The notes below the pieces were generated by a model. That model saw only the letters and a program-made list of their open reading frames with translations, made no database searches and was not told the origin of the DNA. This document shows, piece after piece, positions 1,109 through 35,015 of a stretch of 35,015 bases of DNA; positions within the stretch are counted from its first letter, which is position 1, and every line of letters begins with the position of its first letter. Source of the DNA: an uncultured Porphyromonadaceae bacterium (GTDB taxonomy: Bacteria; Bacteroidota; Bacteroidia; Bacteroidales; Muribaculaceae); the NCBI GenBank assembly GCA_947177185.1, contig CAMWTJ010000019.1, positions 1 through 35,015 of the forward strand, in the 5' to 3' direction. The position numbers and the translations under genes were made by a program.

Positions 1109-1528
1109 ATGGAAATTTCGCACATCGAACACATCGGCATCGCCGTTCCGTCGCTCGACGAGGCAATCCCCTTCTATGAAAAAATGCTCGGCCTGAAATG
1201 CTTCGCCATCGAAGAAGTGGCCGACCAGAAAGTGCGCACCGCCTTCTTCAAGGTGGGCCAGACCAAAATCGAGCTTCTCGAAGGCACGGCCGAGGACAGC
1301 GCTATCTCCAAATTCATAGCCAACAACGGCGGCCGCGGCGGCATACAGCACATGGCGTTCGCCATCCAGGACGGCGTGGCAGCAGCTCTCGGCGAGCTCG
1401 AAGAAAAAGGCTGCCGCCTCATCGACAAAGCTCCGCGCAAAGGCGCCGAAGGCCTCAACATCGCCTTCCTGCACCCAAAAAGCACCGTCGGCACACTCAT
1501 CGAACTGTGTGAAGACCCCAACAAATAA
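1109..1528 (+). CDS. mce: Methylmalonyl-CoA epimerase
   Basis: A 139-residue VOC-fold protein. Family metal ligands are visible: His8 in IEHIGIAV, a His near residue 81 in GIQHMAF, and Glu near residue 133 in TLIELCE. Length matches the family. The enzyme interconverts (2S)- and (2R)-methylmalonyl-CoA, which links succinyl-CoA from methylmalonyl-CoA mutase to the decarboxylase encoded directly downstream. The gap to mmdA is 43 bp on the same strand, so they are likely cotranscribed. The start is the first ATG of the frame that gives the full VOC N-terminus, with an A-rich upstream region typical of Bacteroidetes. No mutase gene is in the window. Confidence 0.93.
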   Translation: MEISHIEHIGIAVPSLDEAIPFYEKMLGLKCFAIEEVADQKVRTAFFKVGQTKIELLEGTAEDSAISKFIANNGGRGGIQHMAFAIQDGVAAALGELEEKGCRLIDKAPRKGAEGLNIAFLHPKSTVGTLIELCEDPNK

Positions 1529-18270: not shown

Positions 18271-20805
18271 TCAGCCGCATTTGCTTGTTCCGCAAGAGGT
18301 GCAGATGAGGCATCCTTCCTGATATATGAGTGTTTCCTGACCGCACTTGGGGCATGTCTGACCGCTGGCTTTGGTGCCGTTGGGCAGATATTTCTTGAGC
18401 GCGCGCTCCACACCCATCTTCCATGTGTTGATGCTCTGCGAGTCGAGCTCGAGGCTGCCCACGAGCTTGAGCACCTGATCTACGGGCATGCCGTAGCGGA
18501 GCACGCCGGAGATAAGTTTGGCATAGTTCCAGTACTCGGGGTTGAACTTTTCGCTCAGGCCTTCGATGGTGGTCTTGTAGCCGCGCTTGTTTATGAACTG
18601 GAAATCGTAGCGTTTGTTGCCCTCGGCGTCCACAGCCTTGATTATTTTGCCGCGGCTTACGCTCTTGGGGCAGAATATGCCGTCCTCGTCGTCGGTAAGG
18701 CCCGTGAAAATCTCGTAGGGCTTGCCGTCGCGCAGACCGATGAAGGCTATCCACTTTTCCTTGTTGTTCTGGAAACGCACCACATCGGCCTCAAGCTCTA
18801 TGGGGCGCTTGCCCACGTGGAGTGCGGGCTCGGGCGTCTTGGGCTCTTTCTTCTCCATGGCGATAAGCACGCCCGAACGCGAGCCGTCGCGATACACCGT
18901 GCAGCCTTTGCATCCCGCATGCCATGCCTCGAGATAGAGGCGGTTGACGAGCTCCTCGCTCACATCCGACGGCAGATTGATAGTGACCGAAATGCTGTGG
19001 TCCACCCATTTCTGTATGCGGCCCTGCATCTTCACCTTCTCGAGCCAGTCTATATCGTTGCTGGTAGCGCCGGCGTAGGGCGAGCGTGCCACCAGATCGT
19101 TCAGTTCGTCCTGCGTGTAGTCCGGGCGCTCGGGTATGCCGTTGATGCGCATCCAGTCTATGAATTTAGGATGGTAGACGATGTATTCCTCGAAAGCGTC
19201 GCCGGTATCGTCCACATAGTCCACGCGCACGGCAGCATCGTTGGGGTTGACCTTGCGGCGGCGCTTGTAAACTGGCATGAACACCGGCTCGATGCCGCTG
19301 GTGGTGCGCGTCATGAGGCTTGTGGTGCCTGTGGGGGCTATGGTCAGGCAGGCAATGTTGCGCCGGCCGTGCGCAAGCATGCGCTCGTACAGTTCTGGCG
19401 ATGCCCCGCGCAGGCGGTTGATGAAGGGATTGTTCTTCTCGCGCTCGGCGTCGAAAATTTCGAAAGCGCCACGCTGCGCGGCCAGCTCCACGCTCGAACC
19501 ATAGGCCGCGAGTGCCAGCGCGCGGTGCACGCTCTCGCTGAAATCGGTGGCTTCGGTGGTGCCGTAGCGGTAGCCGAGTGCGGCGAGCATATCGCCTTCG
19601 GCGGTAGTGCCCACGCCCGTGCGGCGCCCCTTGAGAGTCTTCGACTTTATCTTAAGCCACAGATTGCGCTCGGTGGCCTTCACCTCTTCTGTTTCGGGGT
19701 CGGAGTCTATCTTTTCGAGAATACGGTCTATCTTCTCCATCTCGAGGTCGATGATATCGTCCATGATGCGCTGGGCTTTCGCCACATGCCCGGCAAAGAG
19801 TTCGAAATCAAACGACGCTTCGGGCGTGAATGGATTGCGGACGTAGCTGTAGAGATTTATGGCCAGCAGGCGGCAGCTGTCGTAGGGACAAAGCGGAATC
19901 TCGCCGCAGGGGTTGGTGGAAATGGTGCGGAAACCAAGGTCGGCATAGCAGTCGGGCACACTCTCGCGGGTGATGGTGTCCCAGAACAGCACGCCGGGCT
20001 CGGCCGACTTCCAGGCATTGTGTATGATTTTGCCCCACAATGCCTTGGCGTCAATCTCCTTGCTCACAAGCGGCGCATCGGATACCACGGGAAACTGCTG
20101 CACGTACGGAGCGCCGCTTTCCACGGCCTGCATGAAGGCGTCGTCGATACGCACGCTCACATTGGCGCCGGTGACTTTTCCTTCGGTCATCTTGGCATCA
20201 ATGAAGGCTTCGCTGTCGGGATGCTTGATGCTTACGGTCATCATAAGCGCGCCACGGCGTCCGTCCTGCGCCACCTCGCGTGTGCTGTTGGAATAGCGCT
20301 CCATAAAGGGCACGAGGCCGGTGCTGGTGAGTGCGGAGTTTTTGACGGGCAAACCCTTCGGGCGCAGATGCGACAGGTCGTGGCCCACGCCGCCGCGGCG
20401 CTTCATGAGCTGCACCTGCTCCTCGTCGATGCGTATCACACCGCCATAGCTGTCGGGAGCGCCGTCAAGACCTATCACGAAGCAGTTGCTGAGCGAGCCC
20501 ACCTGATAGCTGTTGCCTATGCCCGACATAGGGCTTCCCTGCGGCACAATATACTTGAAATCCTTGAGCAGGGCGAATATCTCGTCCTCGCTCATAGGCT
20601 CGGGGTATTTGTTCTCTATACGGGCTATTTCGCGGGCTATGCGGCGATGCATATCGTCGGGGGTAAGCTCGAAAATGTGTCCGAACGAATCTTTCAGGGC
20701 ATATTTGCTGGCCCATACACGTGCGGCGAGTTCGTCGCCGCCGAAATATTCGAGAGTAGCAGCCTGGGCTTCTTCGAAGGTATAATGCTTGGTGTTGTCT
20801 GACAC
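18271..20805 (-). CDS. nrdJ: Adenosylcobalamin-dependent (class II) ribonucleotide reductase
   Basis: The reading frame is open to 20937, but the upstream part overlaps dnaA in another frame. The likely start is the GTG at 20805 (VSDNTKHYTFEEAQ), giving 844 residues and a 44-bp gap after dnaA. The protein has the radical-enzyme barrel: SLSNCFVIG (first redox cysteine), STNPCGEIPL (catalytic Asn/Cys/Glu motif), and the PTGTTSL loop. The C-terminus is a cysteine-rich zinc-ribbon-like tail (CPKCG and CTSCGTSKCG) that probably holds the reducing thiols. It makes deoxyribonucleotides without oxygen, using B12. No B12 riboswitch is visible, because the upstream region is only the end of dnaA. Confidence 0.92.
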   Translation of the reverse strand: MSDNTKHYTFEEAQAATLEYFGGDELAARVWASKYALKDSFGHIFELTPDDMHRRIAREIARIENKYPEPMSEDEIFALLKDFKYIVPQGSPMSGIGNSYQVGSLSNCFVIGLDGAPDSYGGVIRIDEEQVQLMKRRGGVGHDLSHLRPKGLPVKNSALTSTGLVPFMERYSNSTREVAQDGRRGALMMTVSIKHPDSEAFIDAKMTEGKVTGANVSVRIDDAFMQAVESGAPYVQQFPVVSDAPLVSKEIDAKALWGKIIHNAWKSAEPGVLFWDTITRESVPDCYADLGFRTISTNPCGEIPLCPYDSCRLLAINLYSYVRNPFTPEASFDFELFAGHVAKAQRIMDDIIDLEMEKIDRILEKIDSDPETEEVKATERNLWLKIKSKTLKGRRTGVGTTAEGDMLAALGYRYGTTEATDFSESVHRALALAAYGSSVELAAQRGAFEIFDAEREKNNPFINRLRGASPELYERMLAHGRRNIACLTIAPTGTTSLMTRTTSGIEPVFMPVYKRRRKVNPNDAAVRVDYVDDTGDAFEEYIVYHPKFIDWMRINGIPERPDYTQDELNDLVARSPYAGATSNDIDWLEKVKMQGRIQKWVDHSISVTINLPSDVSEELVNRLYLEAWHAGCKGCTVYRDGSRSGVLIAMEKKEPKTPEPALHVGKRPIELEADVVRFQNNKEKWIAFIGLRDGKPYEIFTGLTDDEDGIFCPKSVSRGKIIKAVDAEGNKRYDFQFINKRGYKTTIEGLSEKFNPEYWNYAKLISGVLRYGMPVDQVLKLVGSLELDSQSINTWKMGVERALKKYLPNGTKASGQTCPKCGQETLIYQEGCLICTSCGTSKCG

Positions 20806-28167: not shown

Positions 28168-28773
28168 TTACTCTAAAGGTAAGTTGTTTAGTTCCTCGAT
28201 ATAATCCAGCAAAGCCTCGCGACCGCGGCGGTCGGCGCTCGATGTTCTGAACACGGGCGGCAGCTCCTCCCAGCGCTCCATCAGTGCCGAAAGATACACC
28301 TCGGTGGCTTTTTTGGCCGCAGTGGAACTCAGTTTGTCGAGCTTGGTGAACACTATACTGAACGGCACGCCGTTTTCGCCGAGCCACTCCATGAATTCGA
28401 GGTCGATGCGCTGAGGCGCGTGCCTTGAGTCGACAAGCACGAAAAGAGTGGTCATTTCCATGCGGTTCAGTATATAGTCCTTTATCAGCTTCTCGAGCTT
28501 TGCGCGGTCGGCCTTGCTGCGGGCGGCATATCCGTAGCCGGGCAGGTCTACCACAAACCATTCGTCGTTCACCAGAAAATAATTGATAAGCATGGTCTTG
28601 CCGGGAGTAGACGACGTCTTTGCCAGGTCTTTCCGGCCAAGCAGCATATTGATGAGCGACGATTTCCCCACATTGGAGCGTCCGATGAAAGCATATTCGT
28701 GTCGCTTTGCATCGGCCGGACATTTGGCTGCGGAAGGTGCGCTCACTACGAAGCGCGCATTGTTTACTATCAT
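28168..28773 (-). CDS. engB: Ribosome-assembly GTPase EngB/YsxC
   Basis: 201 residues with the G motifs in order: G1 GRSNVGKSS, switch region STPGKT, G3 DLPGYGYA, G4 TKLD and G5 SSADRRG. The lengths and motif spacing are those of EngB (YihA/YsxC), which helps assemble the 50S subunit. It precedes ilvA by 10 bp. It is the last clearly chromosomal gene before the element; a terminator at 28792-28828 separates it from leftward transcription of the element. Confidence 0.95.
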   Translation of the reverse strand: MIVNNARFVVSAPSAAKCPADAKRHEYAFIGRSNVGKSSLINMLLGRKDLAKTSSTPGKTMLINYFLVNDEWFVVDLPGYGYAARSKADRAKLEKLIKDYILNRMEMTTLFVLVDSRHAPQRIDLEFMEWLGENGVPFSIVFTKLDKLSSTAAKKATEVYLSALMERWEELPPVFRTSSADRRGREALLDYIEELNNLPLE

Positions 28774-28791
28774 AACCTGCTGTGTATAAAT

Positions 28792-28828
28792 AAAAAAAGA
28801 CTCTCGAGCGCGGGGCTCAAGAGTCTTT
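28792..28828 (-). terminator. Terminator separating the element from engB
   Basis: A 14-bp stem with one wobble (28796-28809 with 28815-28828) and a 5-nt loop is followed on the minus strand by seven T residues. It ends leftward transcription arriving from the element and lies upstream of engB, protecting that gene from read-through. Confidence 0.85.
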
Positions 28829-28924
28829 GGCGAGTAGCGAATCAGGGACTACCACCTTTTTGTCTAACTCTCTGCCCATAACGGGTTTACGTTTAGGTTC
28901 GTTTTTATTTGTATCACATTTGTA
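28817..28924 (-). pseudogene. Possible 3' remnant of a minus-strand gene at the element boundary
   Basis: A short open frame encodes 35 residues without an early start (ending in VVVPDSLLAKDS) and stops inside the first arm of the terminator at 28792-28828. A stop directly followed by a terminator is how genes normally end, but the frame is closed upstream at 28927. The last 20 residues could start at an ATG at 28879. It may be the tail of a gene cut by insertion of the element, or a small gene. It is not recognised. Confidence 0.3.
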
Positions 28925-28928
28925 TCAC
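28907..28928. repeat. Tandem 11-bp direct repeat near the element's left end
   Basis: ATTTGTATCAC occurs twice in a row with no spacer. It lies between the last repressor gene and the terminator next to engB. Such short direct repeats near an element end are often integrase arm sites or operators, but no integrase is present in the window to support this. Confidence 0.6.
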
Positions 28929-28979
28929 AACATTTTTGGCTATCTCATTGTGTTGTAAACGCTTACGCATTTACGGCAG

Positions 28980-29342
28980 CTATTTGCTTGATAATGCGTC
29001 AATTATCCTATGCAGCGCATCGATTTGCAATTTCGCGCCCTCGTATGCCTGCTTGTAGTCGGCGTTGAGGTCGCCGCCTCCCTGCATAGTCATTGCTCCC
29101 TCGCCGGTGCATATCCATGCGAGGTTTAGTTGCGGGAACGCCTTGATAATGCGTCCGAGCATTTCGGTGCCGATGTTGCCCTTGCCGGTGTGCATGTTGT
29201 TGGATATGTACTTTGGCGAGAGGCTGCATATCCGCTCGAAGTCGTACTCGCTCTTGCAGAGGCCCTGGCCCTGCGCCCACTTGACAAACTCCCGGAGGCG
29301 CTGGATGGGGGTGGACTGTTTTATTTCGTTTTCTGTTGCCAT
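28980..29342 (-). CDS. Phage CI-type helix-turn-helix protein 1
   Basis: 120 residues. The N-terminal half (FVKWAQGQGLCKSEYDFERI, then LSPKYISNNMHTGKGNIGTEML) looks like a divergent XRE/CI repressor DNA-binding domain. The end of it carries LNLAWICTGEGAMT, the W-x-x-TG-x-G-x-M sequence commonly found at the end of the HTH domain of Bacteroidetes phage repressors. The C-terminal 40 residues are helical and have no peptidase. It is the last gene of the leftward operon that begins with a related protein (30597-31058). It could be a second repressor or an antirepressor-type partner. Confidence 0.6.
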   Translation of the reverse strand: MATENEIKQSTPIQRLREFVKWAQGQGLCKSEYDFERICSLSPKYISNNMHTGKGNIGTEMLGRIIKAFPQLNLAWICTGEGAMTMQGGGDLNADYKQAYEGAKLQIDALHRIIDALSSK

Positions 29343-29367
29343 ATTCTGATAAAATGACTATATTTGC
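29336..29367 (+). promoter_or_regulatory. Plus-strand promoter inside the leftward operon
   Basis: TTG (29336-29338), exactly 20 bp, then TATATTTGC (29359-29367) form a complete Bacteroidetes promoter. It overlaps the start of the repressor-like gene at 29342 and reads antisense into 29391-29957. An 88-residue open frame starts at 29371, but it is a shadow of the minus-strand gene and not called here. Confidence 0.6.
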
Positions 29368-29390
29368 GGTATGACAATATCCATTTCTTA

Positions 29391-29957
29391 TCATTTGCCT
29401 GACGGCATTGCCTTGGATTCGTCCCGAACAGCTGAGTGTTTCGCTGACGTTTCGATTTCCAATATCCGTATAGAATCATTAGCTAATGTGCTCGCAGAAC
29501 TTTCTAAACTTTCGGTCAATGACTTTGCACGGCTTGCTACGCTATCTTCATTCAAACCCAATTGCGACTCGGACGACCATAATGTTGAATCGATTATGAG
29601 GCGGTTAGCTTCGCCACATTCGGGGTTGTCTGATTGAGTGTAGCCTCTTAGCGCCCACCCGGCATATCCTGAGATTAGTGCGACTGCTACATTTTCGACT
29701 ATGCGTAACACTAATCCTTTTGCGTTGCGCCTTGTTTGCGCCCTACTCAATCGTGTATAACCGCCACTTTCAAGGAACGCCTTGCCATTGGTGGTTATAC
29801 GTATGAATATCGGGGTCTTCTCGGCGTCGTATTTTACCGTGATAAAACCCGCTTGCTCCAAATCAAACAAATGCTTCGTCAATCCCTCAATCTCGTTGAT
29901 GGGCTTGAACGCCTGAATCTGCGCCAGTATGCGGTCTTTCTCTTTCGCTTCGCTCAT
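29391..29957 (-). CDS. Unknown protein with wHTH-like start and one membrane helix
   Basis: 188 residues. Residues 1-65 (RILAQIQAFKPINEIEGLTKHLFDLEQAGFITV, split by charged loops) have the pattern of a small winged-helix domain with a beta-wing (PIFIRITTNGKAFLES). One hydrophobic segment follows (about residues 87-106: VENVAVALISGYAGWALRG), then a polar tail. No family is recognised. It lies 16 bp after the coiled-coil membrane protein and 48 bp before the second repressor-like gene in the leftward operon. A membrane protein in a lysogeny operon might act on other phages or on the host envelope, but nothing in the sequence shows this. Confidence 0.55.
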   Translation of the reverse strand: MSEAKEKDRILAQIQAFKPINEIEGLTKHLFDLEQAGFITVKYDAEKTPIFIRITTNGKAFLESGGYTRLSRAQTRRNAKGLVLRIVENVAVALISGYAGWALRGYTQSDNPECGEANRLIIDSTLWSSESQLGLNEDSVASRAKSLTESLESSASTLANDSIRILEIETSAKHSAVRDESKAMPSGK

Positions 29958-29973
29958 TAGTCGGCGGGGGTAG

Positions 29974-30597
29974 TTAGTCAGTAGTGATAAATTGGCTAAA
30001 ATACTTGATTAGGGAAGTAGCCTTTTCTCCCTCAATTTTTTTAAGAGCTTCGCATAAACGCTTAATCGCATCTTGGTCGAGTTGTTCCAAATTAAACGCT
30101 TTGCTCTTGTATATCTCCAACCAATCAAGGAGTTGGTCTGTGTGCTTTGAGTTTTCAGCATCATTACTTTTCTCCAATGCAACCACAAGACGATTAAATG
30201 CTTCGGAGAATTGATTCAACATCATGTGGTTAGTAGCCCATAATAGTTCAAGCATTGCTTGATTATTATTGTCATACTCTTGAATTTCCTTGTTTATTAT
30301 GGAAGACACCTTGCTCTCGACCTCAATCTTGAAATCTTTGAATTTATCGAGAATATCGCTTATCTTTCCTTCATACTCTTCTTTTAGGCGTTCTCTTGTT
30401 TGTTCAATTTCTTGTCGCGCATTAATAGTCTGCCATATTTGCCATCCTACGAGAAGGGTTACAATCACACTCAAAGTCGCCACGATTATTCCAGCTGAGC
30501 TATTAGAGTCAAAAGCCAAATCACAATAGCAGGCGTAACCAATCCACCCGCCAAGTATTGCTACAATGATGTATAATATAACGATTGCATTTCTCAT
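29974..30597 (-). CDS. Unknown membrane protein with two N-terminal helices and a coiled coil
   Basis: 207 residues. Two transmembrane helices (residues about 3-24 and 33-54) are followed by a coiled coil (residues 60-100: INARQEIEQTRERLKEEYEG) and a helical cytosolic domain. The start ATG shares one base with the stop of the preceding repressor-like gene (TAATG at 30595-30599), so the two are translationally coupled. This topology is common in small accessory proteins of unknown role in Bacteroidetes elements. It is expected to be made together with the repressor, in the lysogenic state. Confidence 0.6.
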   Translation of the reverse strand: MRNAIVILYIIVAILGGWIGYACYCDLAFDSNSSAGIIVATLSVIVTLLVGWQIWQTINARQEIEQTRERLKEEYEGKISDILDKFKDFKIEVESKVSSIINKEIQEYDNNNQAMLELLWATNHMMLNQFSEAFNRLVVALEKSNDAENSKHTDQLLDWLEIYKSKAFNLEQLDQDAIKRLCEALKKIEGEKATSLIKYFSQFITTD

Positions 30598-31058
30598 TAT
30601 TTCTTCCCTTTCAGTTCATCAATACGTTCTTTCAGCTCTGATATACGCTCGTCTTTGTCGGTTATGATGCTTTTGAGGTCTTTTATTTTATCCTCTTTAT
30701 GGGCGAGGCATACTTTCAGATGTTCTACATCTTTCTCCAACCCTTTTATGTACGCAATCAATTCAGGAGATGCGCCATTGAAATATACGTTATTGTCGCC
30801 TTGTTGATTATTGTTGCTATCGCCTTGAGTATTTTCATAAGTTGGGACAGCTCTAAGCATTTCGCCATTGCCAGTTTTAAGCCATTCAATATTGAGGCGA
30901 GGATAGGCTTGCGCAATTTTGTGGAAAGTGGCACCATAGCTCTTTTCAGTCATTTTGCTTGCGGTGCCAGCCTTTATATCACATTGACGCTCAAAGGCTC
31001 TCATAGATATATCCTCATAATTGAGGAACTGTTGTAGCCTATCTTGCAAAGTGTTCAT
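30597..31058 (-). CDS. Phage CI-type helix-turn-helix repressor candidate
   Basis: 153 residues. Residues 1-70 are an XRE-like HTH (ISMRAFERQCDIKAGTASKM, then FHKIAQAYPRLNIEWLKTGNGEML) sharing the W-x-x-TG-x-G motif with the protein at 28980-29342. A polar Asn/Gln-rich linker follows (GDSNNNQQGDNN). The last 60 residues form a coiled coil (YIKGLEKDVEHLKVCLAHKE), for oligomerisation. It is the first gene of the leftward operon, facing the rightward early genes, as expected for a lysogeny repressor. A palindromic operator candidate lies 4 bp before its start. Confidence 0.7.
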   Translation of the reverse strand: MNTLQDRLQQFLNYEDISMRAFERQCDIKAGTASKMTEKSYGATFHKIAQAYPRLNIEWLKTGNGEMLRAVPTYENTQGDSNNNQQGDNNVYFNGASPELIAYIKGLEKDVEHLKVCLAHKEDKIKDLKSIITDKDERISELKERIDELKGKK

Positions 31059-31061
31059 ATC

Positions 31062-31075
31062 TTAACAAATGTTAA
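31062..31075. promoter_or_regulatory. Palindromic operator candidate before the repressor gene
   Basis: TTAACA, two bases, TGTTAA is a perfect inverted repeat directly upstream of the repressor start at 31058. It lies within the leftward leader and 15 bp from the -33 box of the rightward promoter, so a bound repressor could affect both. Confidence 0.5.
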
Positions 31076-31089
31076 ATAATAGATGAAAG

Positions 31090-31122
31090 TTTGGAATGTT
31101 TGGAGTTTGATATTACCTTTGC
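31090..31122 (+). promoter_or_regulatory. Rightward early promoter
   Basis: TTTG (31090-31093), 20 bp, TACCTTTGC (31114-31122) fits the Bacteroidetes consensus. TTTGGA repeats (31090-31095, 31099-31104) with a third partial TTTGA (31106-31110) overlap the -33 region and may be operator half-sites. Transcription would start near 31128, with a leader of about 140 nt before the gene at 31269. The leader has a CGCCA/TGGCG hairpin and an alternative CCGCCA/TGGCGG pairing. Confidence 0.7.
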
Positions 31123-31204
31123 ATTGTCTTTCCGCCAAAGCAGTGGCGAGAGGCAATACAAAGGCTGGCGGCGACACTTCGCTACCTATCATATATTCTC
31201 AACT

Positions 31205-31236
31205 GCAAAGTTAGCCGTTAGCTTTTGTTTTTACAA
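31205..31236 (-). promoter_or_regulatory. Leftward repressor-operon promoter
   Basis: On the minus strand TTG (31236-31234), 20 bp, TAACTTTGC (31213-31205) is a full promoter. Transcription would start near 31198 and run left across the rightward promoter into the repressor gene at 31058. Confidence 0.65.
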
Positions 31237-31268
31237 GTTTTTGAGCAGTTATTTTCCGTAAAAACGAA

Positions 31269-31493
31269 ATGGCACAGGAATTAAAACATGACGCATTAAA
31301 GAAGATGAAGCTCGGAGGGCGGCCGAAGGTGTTTCGGTTCAATACTCCCGCTGAGTTTGAGTCGGCGAGGAAGAACGCCGAATACATACAAAAGAATTGC
31401 CCTCGCCCCGACGGCGCACGATACAATGTGAAATGCTCCTATCAGTCGGGCACAATAACGGTGACGCTAACTGAAAATGATACAGAAGGATGA
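31269..31493 (+). CDS. Small unknown protein, first gene of the rightward operon
   Basis: 74 residues. A basic N-terminus (KHDALKKMKLGGRPKVFRF) is followed by a helical segment (PAEFESARKNAEYIQKNC) and a C-terminal beta stretch. No family is recognised. Its stop overlaps the next start (ATGA at 31490-31493). Its position directly after the rightward promoter is that of an early phage gene such as a Cro or excision factor, but there is no HTH to support either. Confidence 0.65.
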   Translation: MAQELKHDALKKMKLGGRPKVFRFNTPAEFESARKNAEYIQKNCPRPDGARYNVKCSYQSGTITVTLTENDTEG

Positions 31494-31642
31494 AAAAGTT
31501 TGAATACTACTCGTTCTGCGGAACTCACGGCGACACCACCGACGAATATCTTGACAAACTTGGCAAGGACGGCTGGGAGGCATATGCAGTAGTTCCTAAC
31601 GGCGACACCATAGTGGTCTACCTCAAAAGGCATAAGCGATGA
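31490..31642 (+). CDS. Small protein resembling DUF4177
   Basis: 50 residues (MKKFEYYSFCGTHGDTTDEY, then LDKLGKDGWEAYAVVPNGDT). The sequence LGKDGWEAYAV followed by a strand and a basic end (YLKRHKR) resembles the DUF4177 pattern of small phage and plasmid proteins. Overlaps of 4 bp with the genes on both sides (31490 and 31639) show translational coupling and support it as a real gene despite its size. Confidence 0.65.
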   Translation: MKKFEYYSFCGTHGDTTDEYLDKLGKDGWEAYAVVPNGDTIVVYLKRHKR

Positions 31643-31872
31643 CAACAAACTTCTCTCCCAAGCAGCTTGAGATAATCGCACATAAAGTCGCTGAAAAGCT
31701 CATGGAATCCCAAGATGAGATGTGGCCACTTGAAAGGTTGCACAAAGAAAAAGGGTTTTCCAAATCCTATATCTACCACAATGCGGATATTCTCGGAGGT
31801 GTGAAAGCCGGTGGCAAATGGTTTTTCTCCAAGCGTAATATTGAAGCCCTAATTAAAAGCGGGCAATTATAA
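31639..31872 (+). CDS. Small DNA-binding protein (excisionase-like helix-turn-helix)
   Basis: 77 residues. The C-terminal part (LERLHKEKGFSKSYIYHNAD, then GGKWFFSKRNIEALIKSG) has the layout of excisionase/AlpA-type winged helix proteins: helix, turn, helix, then a short wing. It may be the excisionase or a transcription activator of the element. Its stop codon lies in the palindrome TTATAA, which also holds the stop of the opposing 60-codon frame. Confidence 0.6.
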   Translation: MTTNFSPKQLEIIAHKVAEKLMESQDEMWPLERLHKEKGFSKSYIYHNADILGGVKAGGKWFFSKRNIEALIKSGQL

Positions 31873-32049
31873 CAGCCCCGCGGCTCTGAGAGCCGCGGGG
31901 CTCCAAGAGAGGACATTGACATCGCGGACTTGTATGGAAAGCCCATACATTTGAAGTGAACAACGATATATCTTCCCGGCGCAGCCGTGCAACGCGGACG
32001 CAGGGGAGGAAAGAAAAGAGGTTACGACCTCGGTTGAAACCTCAGCCAT
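31867..32049 (-). CDS. Possible small protein opposing the rightward genes
   Basis: A 60-codon frame (MAEVSTEVVTSFLSSPASAL, ending SPAALRAAGLL) that starts 17 bp after the VRTS-repeat peptide. It has no recognised family. Its last codons lie in the GC-rich hairpin at 31874-31902, so part of the reading frame may be a by-product of that hairpin. It is kept because it is on the strand of the promoter at 32246-32278, next to a better-supported small gene. Confidence 0.3.
   Translation of the reverse strand: MAEVSTEVVTSFLSSPASALHGCAGKIYRCSLQMYGLSIQVRDVNVLSWSPAALRAAGLL
31874..31902. terminator. GC-rich hairpin between converging small genes
   Basis: The two arms 31874-31887 and 31889-31902 are perfect complements, so a stem of about 13 bp with a minimal loop would form. 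It starts 1 bp after the stop of the rightward gene and faces the opposing minus unit. There is no T run, but the position and stability suggest a bidirectional terminator. Confidence 0.65.
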
Positions 32050-32066
32050 AACCTCCCGACACGGGG

Positions 32067-32144
32067 TTAGCCGCGTCTTACGCGGACAGATGTCCGAACC
32101 GTGGTGCGAACGGATGTGCGCACGGTTACTTTGATTTTACCCAT
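32067..32144 (-). CDS. 25-residue basic peptide of VRTS/VRTT repeats
   Basis: The frame starts at ATG 32144 and reads MGKIKVTVRTSVRTTVRTSV and then RVRRG before TAA. Three four-residue units (VRTS, VRTT, VRTS) and a final VRV are encoded by 12-nt units that differ mostly at synonymous positions: GTG CGC ACA TCC, GTT CGC ACC ACG, GTT CGG ACA TCT, GTC CGC GTA. That suggests the peptide, not only the DNA repeat, is kept by selection. The peptide carries nine basic residues and no acidic ones, and alternates Val with polar or Arg residues, so it could form a basic beta-strand. A promoter matching the -7 consensus lies 100 bp upstream. The function is unknown. Confidence 0.5.
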   Translation of the reverse strand: MGKIKVTVRTSVRTTVRTSVRVRRG

Positions 32145-32240
32145 AGTTGTACCATTTTGGGAATTTTGAGTTCTAAAATGACTCCCTCTTTGGAGCCTCG
32201 CTTTTCCCCGTAGAGGAAGGCGCTATTGGCAAAATCAAAG
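32129..32240 (-). promoter_or_regulatory. Structured leader closing over the start of the small peptide gene
   Basis: On the minus strand the expected 5' end of the mRNA (32240-32231) is a perfect 10-bp complement of 32138-32129, which lies in codons 3-6 of the peptide gene. Between them three hairpins can form: 32213-32216/32196-32199, 32192-32195/32182-32185, and 32175-32180/32153-32158 with an inner GAA/TTC pair. Together they make a four-way junction. Pairing would close the start codon region into the fold, so translation could be switched. It may also be a structured RNA in its own right. Confidence 0.45.
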
Positions 32241-32245
32241 CCTCC

Positions 32246-32278
32246 GCAAAGATAATCAATTTATCCGTACGGAGAAAA
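32246..32278 (-). promoter_or_regulatory. Promoter of the small minus-strand unit
   Basis: TATCTTTGC (32254-32246) on the minus strand matches TAnnTTTG. TTTT (32278-32275) lies 20 bp upstream in place of TTTG. Transcription would start near 32240. Confidence 0.5.
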
Positions 32279-32282
32279 CGGA

Positions 32283-32353
32283 AGCCACATAGCTCAGTTG
32301 GTAGAGCGGTCTGCAAAACAGATGCGTCGCCGGTTCGATTCCGGCTGTGGTTC
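32283..32353 (+). tRNA. tRNA-like gene with a 5-nt anticodon loop (Cys- or Phe-like)
   Basis: All arms of a tRNA are present: acceptor AGCCACA (32283-32289) with TGTGGTT (32346-32352, one wobble), U8-A9, D stem GCTC/GAGC with AGTTGGTA, and T arm GCCGG TTCGATT CCGGC. The anticodon stem pairs GTCTG with CAGAT (one wobble) around only five bases, CAAAA. A 7-nt loop GCAAAAC with a 4-bp stem is possible, but it puts C instead of U at position 33. If CTGCAAA is taken as the loop (Cys GCA), the stem falls apart. The length of 71 nt is two short. No CCA is encoded. It may be degenerate or a tRNA mimic. Confidence 0.75.
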
Positions 32354-32367
32354 CTAATTTAATCAAT

Positions 32368-32853
32368 ATGAATTATAGTAGAATAGAAGAATTGGCTCAC
32401 AGAAAGGGTTATCGCGTGGATGCTGACGGATGTCTGCAATCTCCATCTCGAGGCGCTGTAAAGTACACCATCTCACCAACGGGGTATAGAAACTTTACAA
32501 TACGCATTAAAGGGAGAAATAGGCAGCTTCGGATTCATAGATTGGTTGCATACCAAAAATATGGAGAAGGAATCTATGAGGACGGAGTGGTTGTTCGCCA
32601 CTTGGATGGCAACCGTCAGAATAATTCTTTTGACAATATAGCCATTGGAACGCAGAGTGATAATTGTATGGATGTCCCACGTGAAATACGTTTACGCACA
32701 GCTATCTACGCCACCTCTTTTATGACCAAATATGACAAAGAGGTTGTTGAGAGGATTAAAGAGTTCAAAAAGACTCATGGTTACAAAGAAACAATGCGCG
32801 AGTTTGGAATAAGTAGCAAAGGGACTCTTTGGAATATTCTAAACAAACGATAA
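32368..32853 (+). CDS. HNH endonuclease (phage/homing type)
   Basis: 161 residues from the ATG at 32368; the longer frame from 32347 starts inside the tRNA. The HNH_3-type core is clear: RIHRLVAYQKYGEG, then RHLDGNRQNNSFDNIAIGTQSDN, with the His/Asn/Asn metal-finger layout. The N-terminal 45 residues are beta-rich as in NUMOD-associated endonucleases. The C-terminal 40 residues (EVVERIKEFKKTHGYKETMR) look like a helix-turn-helix that would set target specificity. The gene sits between two tRNA-like genes, a typical place for a homing endonuclease in phage tRNA clusters. Confidence 0.87.
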   Translation: MNYSRIEELAHRKGYRVDADGCLQSPSRGAVKYTISPTGYRNFTIRIKGRNRQLRIHRLVAYQKYGEGIYEDGVVVRHLDGNRQNNSFDNIAIGTQSDNCMDVPREIRLRTAIYATSFMTKYDKEVVERIKEFKKTHGYKETMREFGISSKGTLWNILNKR

Positions 32854-32908
32854 ATCATTACTTTGTTTGACACCACAAAGTTAGTGAAAATCGCGGAGGA
32901 ATCCGCAT

Positions 32909-33022
32909 AGCGGCATGGCGGAATTGGCAGACGCGCCTTGCTAAAACAAGGTGGCAGAGGGTTGAGATTCTGGATGATAAAGCCCTCGTAAGACCATGCG
33001 GGTTCGAATCCCGCTGCCGCAA
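32909..33022 (+). tRNA. Leu-type tRNA-like gene with a 6-nt anticodon loop and long variable arm
   Basis: A class II (Leu-like) tRNA frame: acceptor AGCGGCA/TGCCGC (6 of 7 pairs), TG at 8-9, D arm GGCGGAATTGGCAGACGC, and T arm GCGGG TTCGAAT CCCGC. The anticodon stem CCTTG/CAAGG is perfect but encloses only CTAAAA, one base short of a Leu loop CTNAAAA; the missing base would be the wobble base. The variable region (32952-32997) is 46 nt, far longer than a normal Leu arm, and holds GAGGG/CCCTC plus TGG/CCA pairs. CCA is not encoded. Decoding by this RNA is doubtful. Confidence 0.75.
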
Positions 33023-33044
33023 CAAATCCTAATTCAAAAACAAT

Positions 33045-33566
33045 ATGGAACATACATTTAAAGAGGGCGATAGAGTCAGAGTCATAGACTCGCGGCCTGC
33101 GGATTGGTGCGAGAGTCCTCTCTGGACTGACGAAATGAATAGATATGCCGGAAAAGAGGGAGTAGTAGTAGAGCCATCCAATGTGCGTGCTGTTGGAGTT
33201 CAGTTTGAGGATGGTAAATCTTGGCACTACAAGCCATCCTGGCTGAAACCGCTGGAAGCCCGGCAAGAACCCCTGCTCAAAGTCGGCGACCGTGTGAGGC
33301 TTTTGAGGCCCCGCTACCGTTATCCTGCGGGGGAAATTCTAACTATTGAGGAAGTTGAATCCAACGACCTTCGCCTTCCTTACAAGGTTGGAGGCTGGTG
33401 GATGGGAAAAGAGGATGTAGAGCCTATATCCGAACAACTCCAAAAGGCCAACAGCAGCCTTTCTGAGATTAAACGTATTCTCGGAATATGGCGCGCCCAG
33501 GGACCGACAGCAAAACTGCCGCTAATCAACAAAACCAAGTTATTAACCACCATAAAATTAGATTAG
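33045..33566 (+). CDS. Unknown protein with two SH3-like (KOW/MIB-type) segments
   Basis: 173 residues. Two similar segments start with FKEGDRVRVIDSRP (residue 5) and LKVGDRVRLLRPRY (residue 77). Each continues with a glycine-rich turn and a strand ending in a tryptophan (SWHYKPSWLKPLE, GGWWMGKEDVEPI). This is the pattern of small beta-barrels of the KOW or MIB/HERC2 type. A helical tail follows. It starts 23 bp after the tRNA. A role in binding nucleic acid or protein is possible, but nothing specific is visible. Confidence 0.65.
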   Translation: MEHTFKEGDRVRVIDSRPADWCESPLWTDEMNRYAGKEGVVVEPSNVRAVGVQFEDGKSWHYKPSWLKPLEARQEPLLKVGDRVRLLRPRYRYPAGEILTIEEVESNDLRLPYKVGGWWMGKEDVEPISEQLQKANSSLSEIKRILGIWRAQGPTAKLPLINKTKLLTTIKLD

Positions 33567-33568
33567 AA

Positions 33569-33889
33569 ATGAAAGAAAAGAAAATGAAACGCATCGAGGC
33601 CATCATCAAAGGCCGCAAATTCACCGAAGCACTCTTCGGCCTCAAAAAGAAACAGATCCGTCGCGCCCTCGAAGCTGCCGCCGACAACGCCGAGAAGCAG
33701 AAAGAGGAAGCCGCAATCGCCTACGAGCAGGCTTTCACCCATCTGGCGGATGATGATGTCAACTACCAGCTCGTCATCGGGGAGATGCTGGCACACAAGC
33801 AGACCATCATCTCCGCCGGGGCCACCATCGAGGCCGTCGAAGAAATCAAGGCCGACCTCGAAGCCGAAATCACGGTAGAGGCCGAATAA
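33569..33889 (+). CDS. Small helical unknown protein
   Basis: 106 residues from the ATG at 33569 (MKEKKMKRIEAIIKGRKF). An earlier ATG at 33488 lies inside the upstream gene. It is rich in Ala, Glu and Lys, with long helices and a likely coiled coil (KKKQIRRALEAAADNAEKQK), and has an acidic C-terminus. GC content is high, unlike the gene before it. No family is recognised. Confidence 0.65.
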   Translation: MKEKKMKRIEAIIKGRKFTEALFGLKKKQIRRALEAAADNAEKQKEEAAIAYEQAFTHLADDDVNYQLVIGEMLAHKQTIISAGATIEAVEEIKADLEAEITVEAE

Positions 33890-34032
33890 CGCTCGGCCGG
33901 TCACACACAGCGCACGACACAGTGGGGAAATGCCGCCCACGGAGCGGGTGAAATCACTAAAACCTGGCACACCCGTACTGGCCAACGGTTGCAGCCATCG
34001 CGGCTGCCGTGCGCACTATAAAATAACAAAAA
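33890..34032 (+). other. Intergenic stretch between small phage genes
   Basis: A 143-bp stretch with no supported gene. A hairpin of GCAGCC/GGCTGC at about 33992-34008 is the only structure noticed. It may be a leader or weak terminator. Confidence 0.3.
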
Positions 34033-34224
34033 ATGGAAGTAACATTTGACGAGATAAGCGGAACGTTCGCCATTGCCGAGCTGACATTTGAGCAGTTAGA
34101 CCACATTCTAAACTGCATAGCTTTCGCAACGGAACATGACGCAAGGATGCCGAAAGAGAAAGACTCCGACCCGAACAGAAAGCGTATCAACATTGAAAGA
34201 GCCAAACGATACAGGAAACAATGA
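34033..34224 (+). CDS. Small unknown acidic-to-basic protein
   Basis: 63 residues. The N-terminal half is acidic (FDEISGTFAIAELTFEQLDH) and the C-terminal half basic (PNRKRINIERAKRYRKQ). An A-rich leader precedes the ATG. It is not recognised; it fits the run of short early phage genes. Confidence 0.55.
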   Translation: MEVTFDEISGTFAIAELTFEQLDHILNCIAFATEHDARMPKEKDSDPNRKRINIERAKRYRKQ

Positions 34225-34339
34225 AAGCCTTGCGGGTTAGGCACCGCCTCTGCAAAGGGATATAGAAACACGGGAATAAAACTCAGTTTAAAGCTACTCA
34301 GAATACCGTGACTTAAAAGGCTTTTTTAACTCTACCAAT

Positions 34340-34588
34340 ATGAAAACAACAACTATCCGGCGACGCATTGCCGCAGTCGCAGTCGCATCCGTAGGCATGC
34401 TCGGTCTGTTTGTGGCTTCGGGAGAGCCCGCCGAGCCAACGGGTGCCGCCGAGGCGTTTGCCAGGACATGTGCAGCTATGGGCGTCTTTGTCTTGTGCTG
34501 CTACGCAGTCTGCAAACTTGTCGACGGCGGCACAGACACCGAGAACCCGCACACAACAACCTCACAACATAAAACACATGGAAATTAA
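34340..34588 (+). CDS. Small membrane protein
   Basis: 82 residues with two hydrophobic segments: about residues 9-26 (IAAVAVASVGMLGLFVAS) and 44-60 (CAAMGVFVLCCYAVCKLV). The N-terminus is basic, so it would lie in the cytosol, and both ends are then inside. No family is recognised. It overlaps the next gene by 11 bp. Confidence 0.55.
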   Translation: MKTTTIRRRIAAVAVASVGMLGLFVASGEPAEPTGAAEAFARTCAAMGVFVLCCYAVCKLVDGGTDTENPHTTTSQHKTHGN

Positions 34589-34814
34589 TACACAATTCGC
34601 TATCGGCGACAAGGTATGGACCGTCAATCGCTGCAAGGCTGTGGAGCTGACGGTTGACAACATCTCAGTGTGCGAGCGTGAAGGCGTTCCGCGCATACTC
34701 TATGCCGGCAAGGACGCCGCCGGCGCCGTAACAATCGCTTACGAGCACGAGTGCTTCGCAAGCAAACAACAACTACTAAACTACATCTCCGGCAATGGAA
34801 ACGAAAATATGTAA
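34578..34814 (+). CDS. Small unknown protein, beta-rich
   Basis: 78 residues (FAIGDKVWTVNRCKAVELTV, then DAAGAVTIAYEHECFASK). It has a short beta-barrel pattern similar to the KOW-like segments of 33045-33566 (GDKV-W). Its start overlaps the small membrane protein gene and its end overlaps the zinc-ribbon gene by 20 bp. The overlaps support real coding. Confidence 0.6.
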   Translation: MEINTQFAIGDKVWTVNRCKAVELTVDNISVCEREGVPRILYAGKDAAGAVTIAYEHECFASKQQLLNYISGNGNENM

Positions 34815-35015
34815 AGCCTGCGGACGCGAGCTGCCGTGGACTGATTTCCGCCTCATCAAAGGCGATGTGAGGGCGGCAACCTGCAACGCCTGCATCGCGG
34901 AGAAACGCGCTCAGACGCGCTACGAACGTGCCCAAGTGGGGGGGGGGGTAAACTCAGCCCTTTATGGCCCCCGCACTGCCAGCGCAGGGACCGGGGCGGG
35001 GAAGTGCGCATATGG
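34795..35015 (+). CDS. Zinc-ribbon protein, partial at the right edge
   Basis: At least 73 residues, cut by the window end. A C-x2-C pair in KICKACGRELPWTDF and a second in ATCNACIAEKR form a zinc ribbon of the kind seen in HNH-related and other phage proteins. At residues about 48-52 the frame enters a run of 11 G (34938-34948) and the sequence afterwards (GVNSALYGPRTASAG) looks less protein-like, so the frame beyond the run is uncertain. Confidence 0.55.
   Translation, partial: METKICKACGRELPWTDFRLIKGDVRAATCNACIAEKRAQTRYERAQVGGGVNSALYGPRTASAGTGAGKCAY
34938..34948 (+). repeat. Homopolymer run of 11 G
   Basis: The only homopolymer of this length seen in the window. It lies within the zinc-ribbon reading frame and could be a site of slippage in the cell or an assembly/sequencing artefact. 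Confidence 0.9.

Follow-up and report, generated by a model that had tools for sequence, protein, structure and literature searches.

Since the contig ends at position 35015, the prophage in the window (the whole stretch of DNA that was analysed, 35,015 nucleotides) is incomplete. A first-pass annotation had pointed out a minus-strand frame that encodes VRTS, VRTT, VRTS and VRV in tandem 12-nt units, and this frame is present at 32144-32067. The product has no acidic residues, as described, and contains eight basic ones (2 K, 6 R), not the nine counted before. The following features of the region were read or computed from the sequence:

32247..32278, minus strand: promoter with TTTT as -33-like element (32278-32275, 3 of 4 to TTTG), a 20-nt spacer and the -7 box TATCTTTG (32254-32247); from the consensus and a match in family genomes
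32145..32242, minus strand: 5' leader of a small RNA, about 97 nt; from the inferred start and the fold
32223..32240, minus strand: 5' arm of a predicted long-range helix, CTTTGATTTTGCCAATAG; from an inverted repeat and the fold
32129..32146, minus strand: 3' arm of this helix, over the start codon and codons 2-5; 89% complementarity between the two arms, which are 76 nt from each other
32144-32067, minus strand: micro-ORF, 25 codons and TAA, MGKIKVTVRTSVRTTVRTSVRVRRG; ATG-TAA frame read from the sequence
32079..32123, minus strand: tandem 12-nt units VRTS, VRTT, VRTS and a partial VRV; from Tandem Repeats Finder and unit comparison
32013..32055, minus strand: intrinsic terminator, a long hairpin followed by TTTTCTTT; from fold energies
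31106..31117, plus strand: TTTGATATTACC, third copy of the arm motif TTTGATWTTRCC and candidate operator; overlaps the -7 box of the rightward early promoter (31090-31121)

Further elements lie close by. A perfect 14-bp GC-rich hairpin (AGCCCCGCGGCTCT/AGAGCCGCGGGGCT, 31874-31902) directly follows the early gene 31639-31872 and precedes a leader-like element, A(C/A)ATTGACATNG(C/T)GG. The latter recurs in eight loci and was found in the window (31907-32003, plus strand), in five family genomes, in Dulem virus 40 and in a microvirus, there after a TATATTTG promoter. The copies outside the window are:

L008, 1553, minus strand: leader-like element
L034, 1323, minus strand: leader-like element
L035, 1523, minus strand: leader-like element
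L046, 1516, minus strand: leader-like element
L048, 1506, plus strand: leader-like element
L005, 6878, plus strand: leader-like element
L031, 410, plus strand: leader-like element

Two of the family-genome copies are located upstream of putative genes that resemble recT by appearance. In five of the eight loci (window, L008, L031, L034, L035) the element is followed by a hairpin with differing arms and preserved pairing; in L046, L048 and the Dulem copy the hairpin fits poorly. A GCGCAG-containing stretch comes next after the hairpin region in the window, L034 and Dulem. Rfam gave no match for the window copy of the element. To the right of the micro-ORF unit there are two phage tRNAs with odd anticodon arms (32283-32354 and 32909-33022, plus strand). 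One of them, called as Phe(AAA), has a predicted fold with a 5-nt anticodon loop; the other, Leu-like in our reading, has a predicted 6-nt loop and was missed by ARAGORN and found by Rfam. A tRNA called with a four-base anticodon stands beside the leader-like element of L034, too (1334-1417, minus strand). An HNH endonuclease gene (32347-32853, plus strand; Pfam HNH_3, PHROG 59) lies between the two tRNA genes of the window, a position that would fit a homing insertion.

The three full 12-nt units of the micro-ORF comprise positions 32123-32088 and are identical at 8, 8 and 9 of 12 positions in pairwise comparison. The Tandem Repeats Finder score of the array is modest (39, one of 25 rows with at least 30 in the window). 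As it is the sole array of this kind in the window, where no second equally alike triple of 12-nt units occurs, and none was obtained in 20 dinucleotide shuffles, the repeat is more than chance. The length of the ORF is unremarkable, since a complete ORF of at least 25 codons arises in 21% of 5,000 shuffles of the transcript.

Of the twelve columns of the unit, five vary (3, 6, 9, 10 and 12), and these include all four third codon positions. Units 1 and 3 show silent differences only, and unit 2 additionally exhibits an exchange of S to T. The hypergeometric probability of this silent bias is 0.010 in the phase originally proposed and about 0.03 after correction by hand for three phases, with a further discount due because the whole 35-kb window had been read. 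As proof of selection on the peptide, for which they had been taken, the silent changes are a weak argument, because the core GTNCGNAC of the repeat is its own reverse complement and its free positions are third positions on both strands. GTNCGNAC encodes Val-Arg-Thr on either strand, translated or not, and a palindromic site with free positions yields a pattern identical to that of a coding repeat. The locus L077, where a VRT-rich frame runs antisense to the VRTD repeat of a 480-aa ORF, illustrates this two-strand effect. As no homologous locus was found for dN/dS or covariation, statements on selection stay provisional. The micro-ORF does not have gene-like codon usage: its score is reached by 38% of the window's 133 short ORFs (the micro-ORF itself included), and 5% of 2,000 25-codon gene pieces, drawn from the training genes, score as low.

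The sigma-ABfr consensus of B. fragilis consists of TTTG near -33 and TAnnTTTG at -7 (PMC7366714). An exact search with this consensus misses the promoter of the micro-ORF because its -33 element is TTTT. Six TAnnTTTG sites occur in 31000-33100, four of them with 3 or 4 of 4 matching letters at -33; besides the micro-ORF promoter these are three sites, two of which have no recognised gene. By itself the consensus is not distinctive; this site stands out by a longer match to host promoters. In a comparison of the 406-bp region with 397 family genomes the promoter stretch turned up before unrelated genes. The core WAAATTGATTATCTTTGCG with up to one mismatch is found in 10 of 59 family genomes (own included) and its reversed control in none of the 59. 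For 13 other loci, nine from the core search and four from the search with the 406-bp region, we inspected the best-matching site: in 11 of them an ORF of at least 70 aa begins 6-112 nt downstream on the same strand, L101 has no such ORF, and L097 sits near a contig end and cannot be judged. In L038 the scored site differs from the one found with the 406-bp region. At the level of sequence, this minus-strand match indicates that the micro-ORF unit has a host-type promoter and supports the earlier proposal of an own promoter facing the early genes. Transcription would start near 32242-32240 (about 32241).

The terminator follows the stop codon after 11 nt. Its hairpin has a fold energy of -23.2 kcal/mol on the minus strand (z -5.6), compared to -13.3 kcal/mol on the plus strand (32013-32056, z -3.4); it is stronger on the minus strand because G-U pairs turn into mismatches on the plus strand. 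A generic terminator scan listed only the inner part of the hairpin, with 4 sites found compared to 2.1 expected. As promoter and terminator bracket the micro-ORF, the frame is part of a self-contained unit (about 230 nt) directed towards the early genes, with which it is convergent. The unit has, as far as the sequence tells, both an own start signal and an intrinsic terminator, two features shared with Bacteroides intergenic sRNAs. A 60-aa minus-strand frame (31867-32049), which starts inside the terminator hairpin and is antisense to the leader-like element, is probably spurious.

In Flavobacterium, where Shine-Dalgarno sequences are lacking, A at positions -3, -6, -12 and -13 promotes initiation (PMC6847099). 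The ATG of the micro-ORF has A at all four positions. When the remaining 1,145 non-gene ATGs of the window were examined, only 2 had all four adenines; in the prophage part it was none of 205. Of 26 listed genes, a list that is our own choice from the ORF list and may include some wrong starts, 24 begin with ATG; one of these starts has four adenines, eight have three and fifteen have two or fewer. The adenine context is independent of the repeat and represents the best single piece of evidence for translation. A translated micropeptide is partly supported: start context, promoter and terminator argue for it, codon usage does not.

We calculated RNA folds for the interval 31998-32245. On the minus strand it reaches -98.0 kcal/mol (z -6.2), a stability found in none of 200 shuffles, and on the plus strand -88.9 kcal/mol (z -4.0). 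The adjacent stretch 31870-32003 folds strongly on both strands, too (z -4.8 and -4.6). The idea that the whole interval forms one large RNA was rejected, as the interval splits at the minus-strand terminator. Within the unit, the significant predicted structure sits in the terminator and in the start-codon helix. The start-codon domain (32129-32242), comprising the leader and the first codons, has a z of -3.8 on the minus strand (0 of 400 shuffles as stable) and is also unusual on the plus strand (z -3.3). The leader without the arm in the ORF has a z of -0.5, and the ORF alone is unremarkable (z +0.14; 212 of 400 shuffles as stable).

According to the prediction, the 5' end of the RNA pairs over 18 nt with the start codon region. 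Five inverted repeats with 18-nt arms, at least 16 complementary positions and a span of up to 140 nt exist in the window, compared to none in three shuffles; the micro-ORF helix is the only one of the five spanning more than 45 nt, the other four spanning 41-45 nt. The predicted mean unpaired probability around the ATG is 0.20, lower than at each of 23 gene starts (0.25-0.74), and rises to 0.51 for an RNA starting at 32234, i.e. about 8 nt shorter. Intramolecular structure is thus predicted to hide the start of the primary mRNA, as is the case for type I toxins. This pairing of leader and start codon, which the first-pass annotation does not contain, would be the RNA feature affecting translation most.

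The codons of the micro-ORF are not demonstrably tuned to the helix, because many recodings do equally well. The stability of the transcript is equalled or exceeded by 377 of 1,000 synonymous recodings and by 128 of 1,000 codon permutations; among 192 variants of codons 2-6, 20 match the stability of the domain and 25 that of the transcript. When only the ORF is folded, 909 of 1,000 synonymous recodings are more stable than the actual sequence. Tuning of the silent positions of the repeat for RNA pairing was considered and rejected, since many recodings fold equally well and the ORF alone is unremarkable.

Alternatively it might be that the unit encodes an untranslated structured RNA of about 230 nt, antisense to rightward transcription, in which the VRT frame is incidental and the repeats are small palindromes. 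We regard this as possible, with a chance well below even. It accounts for promoter, terminator and fold as well as a translated frame does, and better for the codon usage. The z of -6.2 over the predicted transcript, the stronger fold of the minus strand (-98.0 vs. -88.9 kcal/mol) and the unremarkable length of the ORF fit such an RNA, and so does the predicted burial of the start codon, since a buried start is also what an untranslated RNA would show. In B. thetaiotaomicron, 9 of 11 tested intergenic sRNA candidates were validated, eight of those with a start site and an intrinsic terminator (PMC7366714). However, the significant structure is confined to the terminator and the start-codon helix, the ORF alone having a z of +0.14, and a scan of 28500-35015 with the Rfam 15 covariance models at E up to 1 gave two tRNAs only. 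The complete adenine start context is not expected from an untranslated RNA, and this is the only point where the explanation fails. If it is nevertheless correct, the prophage carries an sRNA without an Rfam family.

DNA control sites would be another explanation, in which the 18-nt arms are operators of the prophage repressor and the GTNCGNAC repeat is a palindromic protein-binding cluster. The proposed operator motif TTTGATWTTRCC matches the window exactly at three sites, which all belong to the control region: one where leftward transcription would start, one at the ATG and one on the rightward early promoter. A fourth site, at 20023, has one mismatch. Repressor operators have to be considered because of the one further exact match on the early promoter. 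Since GTNCGNAC is its own reverse complement, coding is not needed to explain two of the four variable third positions. We consider this explanation quite unlikely. The motif was written from the sites themselves, so that at most one match is independent (0.55 expected at up to one mismatch). Dulem virus 40 (L005), whose early promoter is colinear, has no exact motif and a single one-mismatch match far off at 1465. Furthermore, the G-U pairs point to RNA rather than to a DNA palindrome; this is clear in the case of the terminator and weak in that of the arms.

If translated, the peptide has a marked alternation. Between residues 3 and 23 the odd positions read KKTRSRTRSRR and the even positions between them IVVTVTVTVV. 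The hydrophobic moment for a beta strand is 1.13 at 180 degrees, a value reached by none of 10,000 residue shuffles; this test overstates the significance, because the period-4 repeat itself makes alternation likely. The non-repeat flanks alone keep the alternation, with a chance of about 1 in 35 (calculated by hand). The peptide would thus be a cationic amphipathic beta strand with Val, Ile and Thr on one face and Lys, Arg, Ser and Thr on the other. It does not resemble a hydrophobic membrane-spanning toxin: none of its seven Val/Ile residues are adjacent, and the 25 aa contain no hydrophobic run. No match to the peptide was found among PDB sequences at E up to 10, no family in Pfam, NCBIfam and PHROGs, where such a short query has little power, and no match to peptide strings in the literature of one open-licence library.

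No homologue of the ORF or the RNA was detected in the collections searched, the genome sets of the different searches overlapping. The protein search in 99 genomes gave the own locus and three weak matches (E 0.10, 0.83 and 0.94) in frames of 397, 83 and 31 aa, and the DNA pattern of the repeat was found in 297 genomes at the own locus only. With the 406-bp region, 19 of 397 genomes match (own included), outside G000 only over 20-58 letters; these matches fall on the promoter, the plus-strand leader or scattered places. The scattered ones, three of which touch the ORF (L037, L042, L045), we take as chance. Extending the region to the tRNA yielded matches in 28 of 49 genus genomes, by coordinates nearly all in the tRNA gene. 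A covariance model detected, besides the own locus, one match at E 0.78 in 297 genomes, and in nine sources the own sites only. The tblastn search of phages and plasmids was negative, and weak because the low-complexity filter was on. A degenerate pattern for the start of the peptide gave no match in genome_contigs and viral_contigs, and neither did two longer repeat patterns in viral_contigs. A loose VRT pattern was found in 37 viral stretches with 77 readings in the frame of the pattern, none with a KIKVTV lead in the 12 residues before the match; the closest in appearance was L077. Three early-region proteins used as bait in viral_contigs retrieved no relative, nor did one of them in genome_contigs; the HNH protein as bait retrieved one, L006. 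Among 477 short ORFs in the nine sources, two are basic and V/T-rich; one is the micro-ORF, and the other, in L008, does not resemble it.

Among phage records, Dulem virus 40 (PP511379) is the nearest and the sole match to 28900-34900 (76% over 14% of this interval). The early promoter and the first two early genes (31063-31660) align with this virus (L005, 5500-6096). The possibility that it carries the unit was rejected: the early genes are colinear, and after them only about 60 letters align, at 31868-31927. The 74-aa early protein has no relative except its own in the 397 family genomes.

The lack of relatives in the collections searched, the silent-bias probability of 0.01-0.03 and the codon statistics, which are not gene-like, would all fit a functionless repeat, present by chance or in decay, beside a promoter and a terminator that are real. 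Against this stand the absence of such an array from all 20 window shuffles, the start context shared with only 2 of 1,145 ATGs and the unusual long-range helix on the start codon, and we regard it as very unlikely.

Our tentative preference, with a little less than an even chance, is a leader-gated micropeptide gene of the prophage, which would resemble a type I toxin mRNA in its mode of action and differ from it by a product that is cationic and amphipathic. The host-type promoter would start a transcript of about 230 nt near 32241, which would run leftwards, opposing the early genes, and stop at the terminator at 32013. Its first 14-18 nt or so would fold onto the start codon and codons 2-5, and the full-length RNA would be poorly translated because its 5' end covers the start. 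The start codon would become open once about the first 8 nt are lost or occupied, e.g. through trimming by a nuclease, through a shorter start site or through binding of an RNA or a protein. The product would be the 25-residue peptide, which would most likely bind an anionic membrane or nucleic acid.

A more far-reaching version of the leader-gated gene, which we consider unlikely, is a self-silencing micropeptide gene of a new kind, in which the extreme 5' end of a Bacteroidales phage mRNA locks a non-Shine-Dalgarno start and 5' trimming releases the cationic amphipathic beta-strand repeat peptide of 25 residues. If true, this switch would be similar to those of type I toxins and would have a product of another class than their usual hydrophobic ones, in a phylum whose type I pairs are described as putative (PMC7366714). 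If the frame is translated, prophages of Bacteroidales can encode regulated peptides much smaller than gene finders report, and the first few nucleotides of an mRNA can serve as a switch for access to a start codon that lacks Shine-Dalgarno pairing. It would also mean that the combination of promoter, adenine start context, leader helix and terminator can flag such genes without homologues.

Cationic beta-strand antimicrobial peptides show alternating hydrophobic and basic residues, as does the micro-ORF peptide, which in contrast to them has no cysteines and did not match any solved structure at E up to 10. The proposed gating resembles that of type I toxins, e.g. Hok, TisB and ZorO. In the two-step scheme of type I toxin mRNAs, RNA structure hides the start region until the mRNA is processed (PMC11228461). 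Like these mRNAs, the micro-ORF unit combines a very short ORF with a predicted RNA structure that would hide the start until processing. Type I toxins are usually small and hydrophobic (PMC6563280, PMC3919570), whereas the micro-ORF peptide contains eight charged residues and no hydrophobic stretch. No plus-strand TAnnTTTG for an antisense antitoxin is present in 31950-33100; the site at 31946, which would read into the unit from its left side, has only 2 of 4 at -33, and a sigma-70 scan gave no plus-strand site in 31000-33100. We do not file the unit as a type I member, because its product lacks hydrophobic character and these scans gave no convincing promoter for an antisense antitoxin. In B. 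thetaiotaomicron, type I pairs are described as putative (PMC7366714). They resemble the unit as small RNAs with an sORF in a Bacteroidales genome; the genes of these pairs are divergent and antisense with an sORF candidate each, whereas for the micro-ORF one transcription unit was recognised. The intergenic sRNAs of B. thetaiotaomicron, e.g. GibS (PMC7366714), resemble the unit in their intergenic position, own start signal and intrinsic terminator and in being structured, which for the unit is a prediction. The micro-ORF unit is likened to them by features, not by sequence, and differs from them by an ORF with the complete Bacteroidetes start context.
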